Source: Candidatus Zhuqueibacterota bacterium (GTDB lineage Bacteria; BS750m-G25). From it: DNA of 12,934 nucleotides. The DNA lies in assembly GCA_016783505.1 (NCBI GenBank), contig JADHWK010000063.1, positions 1 to 12,934 on the forward strand. The letters are read 5' to 3'. How positions within the stretch are numbered: position 1 is the first letter of the stretch; each line of letters begins with the position of its first letter. A program made the position numbers and the translations under genes. Of the stretch, positions 1,968-7,245 are shown in pieces. The notes beneath the pieces are model-generated. The model searched no databases. It was not told the DNA's origin and was given only the letters and a program-made list of their open reading frames with translations.

Positions 1968-2118
1968 AGAACCGATCCCGAAACTTCGGGATACGGTTCT
2001 GGACAAGATTCCGGAATGATTTCTGGGTAATTCAAAACCGATCTAAAGATGCGGTTCTGGAAAAGATTCCAAAACATTCCCGAGAATAACCAGAACCGTC
2101 ACTTTTAGTGCGGTTTTC
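1968..2118 (+). repeat. Left hairpin array (REP/BIME-like) upstream of tnpA
   Basis: Three hairpins are spaced by about 60-66 bases. H1 (1968-2000) has AGAACCG + ATCCCGAA, a 2-base centre, TTCGGGAT, a bulged A and CGGTTCT. H2 (2036-2056) has AACCG + ATCT, AA, AGAT, a bulged G and CGGTT. H3 (2093-2118) has GAACCG, a bulged T, CACT, TTT, AGTG and CGGTTTTC. Outer ACCG/CGGT arms are constant while inner arms change together on both sides, so pairing is kept. Spacers share AAGATTCC. GGTTCTGG (2053-2060) can also pair with CCAGAACC (2090-2097). Much of this is repeated at 2683-2774 on the other side of the transposase gene. Confidence 0.8.
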
Positions 2119-2161
2119 ACTCATTCAAATAAATTTCTTGTTATAAGAAGGATTAAAAAAA

Positions 2162-2617
2162 ATGATCTCTAACCTTCCCCTAAGAAAAGGATATCTTCCC
2201 AAGCAATATAGAAAGAAATTTGAGACCGATTCGGATGTCTCCATTACCCATACCAGTTATGCCCTGTATTATCTTCTGAGCTGGAGCGTGAAACAGAGAT
2301 TTCCTCTGATTGAGGAGGAAATCAGGGATCAGGTTGAAAAGTTGATCAACAAAAAATGTCTGGAACTTGGTGTTCACGATTTGGCCGTCGGGATAAATCC
2401 TGAACACGTCCATTCCGTCCTCAGTTTAAAACCGAATCATTACATCCCAGAGGTAGTAAAGGAATTGAAGGGATATTCGTCTCACGAGATTAATAAAAAA
2501 GGGGAATATTTTATTGATTGGACGAGGGGCTACGATATCAGAACGATCAGTCAGAAGAATTTGAAAGCGGCCATTCAATATGTTAAAAACCAACGAAAGC
2601 ATCACCGAGATGAATGA
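2162..2617 (+). CDS. tnpA: IS200/REP-associated-type Y1 HUH transposase (TnpA)
   Basis: The product has 151 residues, the usual size for IS200-family TnpA, single-strand DNA transposases that use one tyrosine. H82-V83-H84 (in NPEHVHSVL) forms the HUH metal site. Y140 in AAIQYVKNQRKHH is the expected nucleophile, with Q144 four residues on as in the family. VVKELKGYSSHEIN and WTRGYDIRTIS match the conserved LKG and W-x-x-GY blocks. AAGAAGGA (2145-2152) precedes the ATG. There is no tnpB. The gene sits between two related hairpin arrays (1968-2118, 2683-2774), which fits either an IS200-like element with structured ends or a domesticated REP-associated transposase (RAYT). It appears intact. It separates the nitrilase gene from the rest of the catabolic cluster. 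Confidence 0.88.
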   Translation: MISNLPLRKGYLPKQYRKKFETDSDVSITHTSYALYYLLSWSVKQRFPLIEEEIRDQVEKLINKKCLELGVHDLAVGINPEHVHSVLSLKPNHYIPEVVKELKGYSSHEINKKGEYFIDWTRGYDIRTISQKNLKAAIQYVKNQRKHHRDE

Positions 2618-2682
2618 GGGTGAGAAGACAAATGAGGGATAAGCTTTAATTTATATTATGGTTGTGGATGAGTTTAGGTTCC

Positions 2683-2774
2683 GAACCGATCCCGAAACTT
2701 CGGGATACGGTTCTAGACAAGATTCCAAAACATTCCCGAGAATAACCAGAACCATCCCGATCATTCGGGACGGT
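2683..2774 (+). repeat. Right hairpin array (REP/BIME-like) downstream of tnpA
   Basis: The first hairpin (2683-2714) repeats 32 bases of left hairpin H1 exactly; with its flank 43 of 44 bases match (1969-2012 against 2683-2726). The following 2719-2753 is identical over 35 bases to 2063-2097. A second hairpin (2751-2774) has arms ACCATCCCGA and TCGGGACGGT with one mismatch and loop TCAT. The right side thus looks like the left array with its middle hairpin removed. An open frame over this stretch is a by-product of the repeat and not a gene. Confidence 0.8.
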
Positions 2775-4368: not shown

Positions 4369-5571
4369 ATGATGGATATCAAAGTCAATTTCTGCGGAAT
4401 ATCATCCCCTAACCCCTTCTGGCTGGCCTCAGGGCCGCCGACCAATACCATGGATCAGGTCATGCGGGCCTTTGAAGCCGGATGGGGGTGTGCGGTGTGG
4501 AAGACGATAGGGGTCCCGGTCGTCAATGTCAGTCCCCGACTGGCAGCCATCACCCTGAACGATCAACGGATGGTGGGGCTGCATAACATCGAACTCATCA
4601 GCGATAGGACACTCGAGGAAAATCTAAAAGAAATTGCCGAAGTCAAAAAGGAATATCCCGATCGGGCGGTGGTGGTCTCCTTGATGGGGGAGTTCCGGCG
4701 GCAGACCTGGCATGAATTGGTTAAGAGGGCCCAGGACACGGGTTGCGATGGGCTGGAGCTGAACCTCTCCTGCCCTCATGGATTGCCCGAGCGGGGAATG
4801 GGGTCGGCTATCGGGCAGGTCCCTGAATACACGAAGCAGATCACAGAATGGGTCAAAGAGGTCTCGGATATTCCCGTCATCGTTAAGTTAACGCCGAACA
4901 TCACCGATATCCGCTTCCCGGCCCGGGCGGCGGCTCAGGGGGGGGCAGACGGGCTTTCGGCGATCAACACCATAAAAAGCATTATCGGGGTGAATCTGGA
5001 TACCCTTCAGCCCCTGCCTACAGTGGAGGGCAGGTCCACCCCCGGGGGCTTAAGCGGGCCGGCGGTTAAACCCATCGTCCTGAGCATGATCACCCAACTG
5101 GCCAGGGACCCGGCACTGACCGTTCCCCTCTCGGGAATTGGGGGCATCGCCACCTGGCAGGATGCGGCGGAATTCATCCTGCTGGGCTGCACAACGGTTC
5201 AGGTGTGCACGGCAGTTATGCATTACGGCTACCCAATCGTCGAAGATATGATTAGTGGGCTGAAAAACTATATAGCTGAAAAAGGTTTTCAGACCCCGGA
5301 AGAGATGGTGGGGCTTTGCGTCCCCAGGGTTACCGATTGGGGAAACCTGGATCTGAACCATAAAGTCGTGGCCCGGATTAATGAAAACCTCTGCTTGAAA
5401 GATGACCTCTGCTTTGTCGCCTGCCGTGACGGGGGGCATCAGGCAATTCGTTATCCGAATAACGACCGGATTCCGGTGGTAGATGAAGAGAAATGCGTGG
5501 GGTGCAACCTGTGTTCGTTGGTCTGTCCGGTGGAGGGTTGTATTGTGATGGAAGGGGTGAATATTTGTTAG
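4369..5571 (+). CDS. preA: Dihydropyrimidine dehydrogenase subunit PreA (DHOD-like domain plus ferredoxin tail)
   Basis: This 400-residue protein has an FMN-binding dihydroorotate dehydrogenase-like barrel (about 1-320) and a C-terminal iron-sulfur region (about 335-395). It should reduce uracil and thymine to the dihydro forms in the cytoplasm. Diagnostic blocks are SPNPFWLASGPPTN, NLSCPHGLPERGMG, KLTPNITDIRFPARAA, SGIGGIATWQDAAEF and VQVCTAVMHYG. The second cluster motif is complete (C376, C379, C382, C386). The first is C342-x2-D345-x2-C348-x3-C352, with Asp where Cys is usual. PreA normally works with the FAD/NAD(P)H subunit PreT, which is absent here. ATG codons stand at 4369 and 4372 with only an A-rich stretch upstream; I chose the first. 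The gene follows the ammonia-lyase by 18 bases. Confidence 0.9.
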   Translation: MMDIKVNFCGISSPNPFWLASGPPTNTMDQVMRAFEAGWGCAVWKTIGVPVVNVSPRLAAITLNDQRMVGLHNIELISDRTLEENLKEIAEVKKEYPDRAVVVSLMGEFRRQTWHELVKRAQDTGCDGLELNLSCPHGLPERGMGSAIGQVPEYTKQITEWVKEVSDIPVIVKLTPNITDIRFPARAAAQGGADGLSAINTIKSIIGVNLDTLQPLPTVEGRSTPGGLSGPAVKPIVLSMITQLARDPALTVPLSGIGGIATWQDAAEFILLGCTTVQVCTAVMHYGYPIVEDMISGLKNYIAEKGFQTPEEMVGLCVPRVTDWGNLDLNHKVVARINENLCLKDDLCFVACRDGGHQAIRYPNNDRIPVVDEEKCVGCNLCSLVCPVEGCIVMEGVNIC

Positions 5572-5710
5572 CGAAAAGAGTATCATCCGTTCTTTCAAGG
5601 TTGAACCTTGTCGGAACGATCTTGGGAAAAGAATCCTTTACCTCCAGGTTAAAAAGTGAGGACAGAGAATTAAGGATATCTATCATGGCATAATCTGAAG
5701 GTTTTTGTAA

Positions 5711-5742
5711 TGCTTCAATCCCAAACATTCGGGATTGAAGCA
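5711..5742 (+). repeat. 12-bp hairpin with a CCC...GGG core
   Basis: TGCTTCAATCCC (5711-5722) pairs perfectly with GGGATTGAAGCA (5731-5742) around the loop AAACATTC. There is no T run after it, so it is unlikely to be a simple terminator. The core CCCAAACATTCGGG resembles the CCCGAAACTTCGGG stem of the arrays near tnpA and may be a distant member of that group. Confidence 0.6.
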
Positions 5743-5794
5743 ACTTTGGTGAAAAAAGTATGAGTTCGGGTGGTGAAGTGCAAAGGTTTTGCCT

Positions 5795-5823
5795 TTGATA
5801 TGCAAAAGTAGGGCTTTTATACT
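5795..5823 (+). promoter_or_regulatory. Sigma70-like promoter before dihydropyrimidinase
   Basis: TTGATA (5795-5800) and TATACT (5818-5823) are 17 bases apart. Transcription would start near 5830, giving a leader of about 39 bases before the ATG at 5869. The -35 box overlaps the 3' arm of a small inverted repeat (5781-5786/5792-5797), which could be incidental. Confidence 0.6.
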
Positions 5824-5868
5824 CCGTCACTCCGTCTCAAGTTCAGAAATTGTTGAAAGAAATTTGTT

Positions 5869-7245
5869 ATGGATACCATCATTAAAAACGGAACTATCGT
5901 AATGGCCGGGGAGAGCTACCGGGCTGACATAGGGATTGAGGGGGGTAAAATCATCGCCCTTGGGGAGCATTTGTTCGATCCTTCGGCAAAAGTAATTGAC
6001 GCCGATTGGAAGTACATTTTTCCCGGGGCCATTGACCCCCACGTCCATTTCCAACTACCTTTCTGCGGCACCGTATCCGCCGATGACTTCGAGAACGGAA
6101 CCAAGGCGGCCGCCTGTGGGGGGGTGACCACGGTGATTGATTTCGCTATTCAGAAAAAGGGGGAATCCCTGATGAAGGCCATCGAGGCCCGGCGGGCTGA
6201 GGCCGATGGTAAGGTCTGCGTGGACTATGCCCTCCACTCCGTTCCCACCGACTGGAACGAGGCCACCAAAGAGGAGATGAAGGCGGTCATTGATTACGGT
6301 ATTCCTACCTTTAAGATGTTTATGATCTACGCCAAGGAGGGGTTGATCTCTAATGATGACGCTTTGTTCGAGGGCCTGGAGGTAGCTGCTGAGTATGGGG
6401 GTCAGATCGGGGTCCATGCCGAATCGGTTCGGGTTCTGGACAAATTGATTGAACGATACCACAATGAGGCGGACATGAAAAAGTATGGGGCTTACCTGCA
6501 CGTACTGTCCCGGCCCAACTTCATCGAGGCCGAGGCGGTCCAGCGGGCTATAAAGTGGTCGCAGGTAACCGGGGGAAGGCTCTACATCGTCCACTTATCC
6601 ACCAAGGAGGGGGCGGAACTGGTCAAACGGGCCCGCCATCATGGGCTGAACGTCTATGCCGAAACCTGTCCCCAGTATTTGCTTTTGGACGATGAGGTCT
6701 TCAAAAGACCCAATGGACACCTTTTTGCCACCTGTCCCCAGATCAAGAAAAAAGAAGATTCAGAAGCTCTATGGCAGGGGTTGGCGAAGGGATACCTTTC
6801 CAACGTGGCCACGGACACCTGTACCTTCGATACTAAGCAAAAAGCGATGTGGGAAGGGGATTTCACCAAAATTCCCTTCGGGTTGCCGGGGGTGGAGACG
6901 ATGCTCTCATTGATGTACACCTTTGGAGTTGGTGGTGGGCGCTTTTCGGTCAACCGGCTGGTGGCCCTGACGAGCACCAATGCGGCTAAACTGATGGGGA
7001 TGTTTCCCCGCAAGGGGGCTATTACGGTGGGGTCAGACGCCGATCTGGTCATCTTCGACCCGAACAAAGATGTTACCCTGACCTATAAGGATCTTCAGAC
7101 TAACTGCGACTGGTCACCCTATGAAGGGATGAAGCTGAAAGGCTATCCTGAGGTAACCCTCTGCCGGGGCAAAGTAATAGCCGGGGGAGGAAAGTTTGTG
7201 GGTCAAACGGGATATGGAAGGTTTGTAAAAAGAGAACCGGTGTAG
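5869..7245 (+). CDS. hydA: Dihydropyrimidinase (hydantoinase family)
   Basis: The 458-residue protein is a cyclic amidohydrolase that opens dihydrouracil or dihydrothymine to the N-carbamoyl-beta-amino acid. The binuclear zinc ligands are visible: H58 and H60 (DPHVH), the lysine to be carboxylated K149 (TFKMFMIY), H183 (GVHAES), H242 (VHLST) and D316 (ATDTCTF). Y154 matches the family's catalytic-site tyrosine. GDFTKIPFGLPGVE, TSTNAAKLMGMFPRKG and VGSDADLVIFDP are characteristic of true dihydropyrimidinases and D-hydantoinases. No signal peptide is seen. The ATG at 5869 has only a weak purine-rich site upstream (GAAAGAA). It probably has its own promoter at 5795-5823. With preA and the nitrilase it completes the reductive pyrimidine pathway; hydantoin compounds are possible alternative substrates. 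Confidence 0.92.
   Translation: MDTIIKNGTIVMAGESYRADIGIEGGKIIALGEHLFDPSAKVIDADWKYIFPGAIDPHVHFQLPFCGTVSADDFENGTKAAACGGVTTVIDFAIQKKGESLMKAIEARRAEADGKVCVDYALHSVPTDWNEATKEEMKAVIDYGIPTFKMFMIYAKEGLISNDDALFEGLEVAAEYGGQIGVHAESVRVLDKLIERYHNEADMKKYGAYLHVLSRPNFIEAEAVQRAIKWSQVTGGRLYIVHLSTKEGAELVKRARHHGLNVYAETCPQYLLLDDEVFKRPNGHLFATCPQIKKKEDSEALWQGLAKGYLSNVATDTCTFDTKQKAMWEGDFTKIPFGLPGVETMLSLMYTFGVGGGRFSVNRLVALTSTNAAKLMGMFPRKGAITVGSDADLVIFDPNKDVTLTYKDLQTNCDWSPYEGMKLKGYPEVTLCRGKVIAGGGKFVGQTGYGRFVKREPV

Follow-up and report, generated by a model that had tools for sequence, protein, structure and literature searches.

An IS200-class transposase gene between tagged, REP-like hairpin pairs that recur across the genome of a Candidatus Zhuqueibacterota bacterium

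Domestication of a bacterial transposase is classically illustrated by REPs and their enzymes, a pairing linked to a single branch of the Y1 family. Here we ask whether a Y1 transposase gene of another kind, lying between two arrays of hairpins, belongs to an insertion sequence or to a REP system of its own. The window analysed (12,934 nt) is the entire 12.9-kb contig C80 of the source genome, which comprises 2.5 Mb in 89 contigs and is 60% complete. The tnpA gene and the two hairpin arrays (1970-2115 and 2684-2774) have a nitrilase-like gene on one side and a HutH-type lyase gene on the other; the individual features are listed in Table 1. The genes around this unit (1060-1935 and 4369-7245) are nitrilase-like, dihydroorotate/dihydropyrimidine dehydrogenase-like and amidohydrolase genes and resemble a cluster for the breakdown of pyrimidines or hydantoins, with the tnpA unit and the HutH-type lyase gene between them. 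The best named relatives of HutH were found in a MAG labelled Deltaproteobacteria (74%) and in Aminicenantes MAGs. When 80 HutH loci were scanned for an empty site of the tnpA unit, none had a TnpA, a nitrilase-like gene or PreA nearby, and no syntenic relative was found among them.

Table 1. Coordinates of the transposase gene, hairpins and spacers in the window.
Feature	Position	Strand	Support
tnpA, IS200-class HUH/Y1 transposase, 151 aa	2162..2617	+	Pfam Y1_Tnp 74.4 bits; NCBIfam IS200 71.5 bits (cut-off 55); motifs EHVH, Y140, Y-x3-Q-x2-HH
HP1, long-tip REP hairpin, bulged A, then CTGG	1970..2002	+	
HP2, short REP hairpin, bulged G, then CTGG	2036..2060	+	covariance model E 9e-9, HP2 being itself a member of the model
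Spacer, 29 nt, between the tags of HP2 and HP3	2061..2089	.	
HP3, inverted REP, bulged T, CCAG 5' of the hairpin on the + strand	2090..2115	-	
HP4, right-side copy of HP1, tag CTAG	2684..2716	+	block identity 43/44
Spacer of the right pair, 29 nt, within the block identical to the left array	2717..2745	.	35/35 identity, 2719-2753 vs 2063-2097
HP5, inverted REP, CCAG, shorter outer arm, without bulge	2746..2774	-	

An initial sequence-only reading had described a lone Y1 TnpA between two hairpin arrays, and both the intact gene and all five hairpins are present. HP1 has the sequence AACCG-ATCCCGAA-AC-TTCGGGAT-A-CGGTT-CTGG and HP2 the sequence AACCG-ATCT-AA-AGAT-G-CGGTT-CTGG; HP4 is the same as HP1 except for CTAG after the stem, and the inverted HP3 reads CCAG-AACCG-T-CACT-TTT-AGTG-CGGTT. 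The constant ACCG/CGGT outer arms and the single-base bulge at one junction, both reported in that reading, hold for HP1 to HP4 (with arms of AACCG/CGGTT) but not for the inverted HP5, in which CCAG is followed by an outer stem of only ACC/GGT and a G.T pair occupies the bulge position of the other hairpins. Inner arms that vary and still pair were seen as described in HP2 (ATCT/AGAT) and HP3 (CACT/AGTG), and the blocks said to be shared by the left and right arrays proved exact, starting at 1969 and 2683 for the longer and at 2063 and 2719 for the shorter.

Two further features emerged, a constant CTGG/CCAG tag and the inverted pairing of the hairpins. Each hairpin carries the tag on a fixed side, so that hairpin-CTGG on one strand is CCAG-hairpin on the other (HP4 alone has CTAG), and HP2 and HP3, like HP4 and HP5, make up an inverted pair with the two tags directed towards one another on either side of the spacer. 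Judged from the DNA, this is the layout of a REPIN or BIME, with a different tag replacing GTAG. Fold energies relative to dinucleotide shuffles gave z-scores of -6.6 (1966-2115), -5.0 (2030-2120) and -4.8 (2682-2778), compared with -0.3 for nearby coding DNA. A terminator reading of the hairpins was rejected because the stems are followed by CTGG and not by a T-run. The tip of HP1 and HP4 also represents a second, untagged palindrome family, ATCCCGA-N4-TCGGGAT (for example at 988-1005 of the window), of which the source genome contains 67 exact copies, the reversed control none and three other genomes 0-1; the loop measures 4 nt in every site among those listed, and the outer arms vary by site (e.g., GGAGTGC/GCACTCC, TTCA/TGAA).

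The protein is best called an IS200-class, HH-type outlier, as far as its sequence allows a classification. The EHVH motif and Y140-x3-Q144 are intact, the latter within YVKNQRKHH (Y-x3-Q-x2-HH), and the IS200 equivalog model NF033573 was passed at the score given in Table 1. By profile and motif it is not a RAYT / TnpA_REP of class 2: the protein failed the RAYT model REP_Tyr_transpos (NF047646; 26.7 bits, cut-off 80), has YVKNQRKHH instead of the Y-x3-NP motif that defines RAYTs (PMC6006769), and is accompanied in the window and at the dispersed copies by CCAG/CTGG at the REP foot instead of a GT[AG]G tag. The relatives of solved structure that were matched by sequence are IS200/IS605-type transposases, such as those of ISHp608/IS608, ISDra2 and similar elements; no REP transposase was among them. 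In a 40-row tree, TnpA was placed outside the supported group of classical IS200 and RAYT sequences (96/90) and beside the HH rows at a weak 75/53; neither of the constrained alternatives, IS200 (p-AU 0.19) or RAYT (p-AU 0.17), was rejected. The early guess that the system may be an intermediate fits this protein, which is IS200-class by profile and motif, not RAYT, and sits on a long, poorly resolved branch. The gene is present as a single copy in the source genome, and searches of GTDB contigs and viral contigs returned no close homologues, the best match elsewhere being at most 37% identical. A single-sequence structure prediction reached a pLDDT of 37, too low to be of use.

The sequence-only reading had named confinement of the hairpins to this locus as the sign of an ordinary insertion sequence and had suggested a REP/BIME-like organisation; the first is contradicted and the second supported, since the genome contains about 40 hairpins of the same design that have no tnpA with them and that are mostly arranged as inverted pairs with fixed spacing between genes. 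The pattern AACC-N8-26-GGTTCTGG matched 46 sites in the source genome, compared with five for the reversed pattern, and about 37 of the 46 are genuine stems, as judged by reading the listed sites. Ten short REPs, two of the window and eight dispersed ones, which match by construction, served to build a covariance model. At E<=0.1, the model matched at least 40 sites in the source genome, a lower bound because scoring covered 150 of the 2246 candidates. In each of 11 other genomes, all from outside the phylum, it matched no site or a single marginal one. The reversed-pattern control and the other genomes thus indicate that the hairpin family is specific to the source genome.

Tagged hairpins occupy at least 20 intergenic gaps besides the tnpA locus, and none of the 25 copies examined is located in an ORF of at least 80 aa. 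The 13 head/tail pairs all have tail-to-tail orientation, and their gaps measure 26-29 nt; the eleven away from tnpA have a gap of 27 nt, once 26, compared with 29 nt for those at tnpA. Two traits of REP/REPIN organisation, intergenic dispersal in many copies and regularly spaced inverted pairs, are found here. Lone tagged REPs without a partner are also present. The dispersed REPs include both tip types of the window, the lone copies have the bulge at the same position, and the CCAG/CTGG tag is common to the window and the dispersed copies. Among the dispersed REPs, the fifth stem pair shows a compensated change from G-C to T-A. Two-sided stem changes that preserve pairing were counted in five cells, compared with 1.4 in shuffles. 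Many copies form the core of elements of ~190-240 bp with imperfect complementary ends (GTCAGGCGCCCGGGCCTGTTGCAGAAC...), which the lone REPs lack, and near-identical pair-based elements of ~200 bp occur in unrelated contexts. At four loci (L026, L027, L032 and L052, compared with L034 and L049), a stretch of ~11-50 nt (TCCGC...GGAGGCTACGCTC) separates the second hairpin from the CCAG tag precisely at the expected guide/hairpin junction.

The source genome encodes three HH-type TnpAs. Palindromes of a different sequence (AACCGTT..AACGGTT with CACC- or CCCACGAAT-type stems) flank each of the other two, which are encoded on contigs C89 and C32, and AACCGTTNNAACGGTT occurs 17 times, mostly away from tnpA, compared with none in the control; the pattern CACC-N12-14-GGTG proved too loose to serve as a search. 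Two arrays of four hairpins without tnpA (L301, G000:C5:72032; L307, G000:C46:775) have covarying stems (AACCGTT, TAACCCCCAGTT, CCCCCGAAT and AACCGAT) in an order common to both, and look like two element ends without the gene. An L002-like tnpA remnant that retains approximately the first 12 and last 32 residues (L308, G000:C51 near 18518) lies among palindromes of the sister family and looks like an internal deletion derivative.

In a wider survey, 24 HH-type or near-HH loci, which had been picked by similarity to TnpA and not by their arrays, had a mean of 2.83 hairpins within +/-500 bp (0.31 in shuffles), and 12 of them exceeded all 40 shuffles. For 10 IS200-type loci used as comparison, the mean was 0.90 (0.35 in shuffles), and one locus exceeded all shuffles. 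The survey detects perfect stems only and scored 0 at E. coli rayT because the REPs there are bulged. Exact copies of the hairpins at the HH-type tnpA of two complete genomes (G129 and G323) were found beside that gene and nowhere else, and wide dispersal is therefore a result for the source genome only. A dense array around a further HH-type tnpA (L252, G215:C35:3310-6262) consists of 12 CCCCACGC/GCGTGGGG and six TTTTGTCC/GGACAAAA hairpins, neither type of which recurred in the 330 kb sampled.

We consider it rather probable that the locus represents a REPtron-like system, in which a lone IS200-class Y1 transposase with the Y-x3-Q-x2-HH motif is flanked by inverted, tagged and mostly bulged REP pairs, and in which REPs of this kind also recur in intergenic DNA elsewhere in the genome, for the most part as REPIN-like pairs. 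The tag, the bulge, the compensatory stem changes, the tail-to-tail pairs with a nearly fixed gap, the genome-wide copies and their intergenic location can all be read directly from the DNA. The transposases of IS608 and ISDra2 recognise hairpins with an unpaired base, and their place of cutting is set by pairing to a tetranucleotide guide on the 5' side of the hairpin; TnpA_REP of E. coli requires GTAG and the bulge (PMC8266576). By analogy, a TnpA dimer would bind the single-stranded hairpin via the bulged base as its recognition point, CCAG 5' of the hairpin would be the guide tetranucleotide that selects the cut, and Y140 would cut and rejoin single-stranded REP DNA, probably at the replication fork. 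REPINs would thus be spread by TnpA, whereas its own gene, present once, would not move. The 27-nt spacer of the dispersed pairs differs from that at tnpA, which indicates that they were not copied directly from the tnpA arrays; the assignment of enzyme to repeat therefore rests on the shared design (tag, bulge, arms and spacing), and the missing 40% of the genome could hold another tnpA.

The same organisation might be that of an IS200-type insertion sequence with multi-hairpin ends, whose miniature, non-autonomous derivatives (MITE- or PATE-like) retain only the end hairpins and make up the dispersed pairs, the transposase being an ordinary mobile-element enzyme. We regard this as less likely but as a serious alternative: the protein passes the IS200 profile and fails that of RAYT, exact hairpins are confined to tnpA in G129 and G323, and many dispersed copies lie within elements of ~200 bp with imperfect inverted ends. 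The sister family also agrees with this alternative, since its solo arrays resemble the two ends of an element without the gene and the deleted tnpA copy that retains only its ends supports an insertion sequence with miniature derivatives. However, a single copy of tnpA faces about 40 REPs, some of which are tagged but have no partner; moreover, both sides of tnpA carry pairs instead of single end hairpins, and the spacers of the dispersed pairs are unlike those at tnpA.

It seems improbable that the palindromes are host features, such as RNA hairpins, terminators or protein-binding sites, which spread for other reasons and among which tnpA merely happens to lie. Such features would explain why every copy examined is intergenic, why the second, untagged palindrome family occurs in many contexts, and the one terminator-like call, on the minus strand of HP5. 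They are at odds with the constant CTGG in place of a T-run, with inverted pairs of fixed spacing, with the lack of a match to any Rfam family, and with the clustering of five hairpins on both sides of tnpA, compared with about 40 genome-wide; in addition, hairpins flank HH-type tnpAs beyond shuffles more often than they do classical IS200 genes (12/24 vs 1/10).

If the REPtron-like reading is true and a genome-wide REPIN family belongs to an IS200-class enzyme, mobile elements would have turned into dispersed palindrome systems more than once, or an intermediate would survive. We tentatively entertain the wider possibility that the IS200-class branch with Y-x3-Q-x2-HH as a whole may be a second REP system of separate origin from RAYTs, each member with its own palindrome family and a tag other than GTAG, which was overlooked because surveys sought GT[AG]G. 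Since one genome contains three transposases of this kind and no fewer than two distinct families of dispersed palindromes, the pairing of enzyme and palindrome is directly testable.

Among known systems, IS200/IS605 elements (IS608, ISDra2) combine the same class of transposase with bulged hairpins and with a tetranucleotide on the 5' side of the hairpin that acts as a guide (PMC8266576), a role that CCAG would have here by analogy. They differ in having one subterminal hairpin per end, whereas the present locus has inverted pairs and arrays (three hairpins on the left, two on the right), dispersed copies free of tnpA and a single tnpA. TnpA_Y1 subclass 1.2 shares the Y-x3-Q-x2-HH motif, the IS200-class affiliation, a short protein and a low copy number, but is recorded as 'REP: no' (Quentin et al. 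2018, PMC6006769) and has a conserved C-terminal domain and a WQ motif; TnpA has WT and ends directly after HH (HHRDE). TnpA_Y1 class 3 is a mixture of IS and REPtron traits: its Y/Q motif is IS200-like, its gene is surrounded by several hairpins and its genomic copy number is high (Quentin et al. 2018, PMC6006769). Its CnGA foot could have a counterpart here in CAGA if the stem is counted from ACCG. Membership in class 3 was nevertheless ruled out, as Y and Q are separated by three residues, not four (Y-x4-Q and NHVH there, Y-x3-Q-x2-HH and EHVH here). REPtrons, with tnpA_REP/RAYT, GTAG-tagged REPs, BIMEs and REPINs in E. coli and Pseudomonas (PMC6006769, PMC8266576, PMC3733652), resemble the locus in the single-copy Y1 tnpA between REP pairs, the dispersed intergenic REPs, the inverted pairs, the tetranucleotide tag at the hairpin foot and the stem bulge. 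They differ in the enzyme motif (Y-x3-NP instead of Y-x3-Q-x2-HH), in the tag (GTAG/GTGG instead of CCAG) and in copy number (hundreds instead of about 40). The tag is best read as CCAG in place of GTAG/CGTC, and the locus looks like a separate version of the system of transposase-linked REPs described for another branch of these enzymes.
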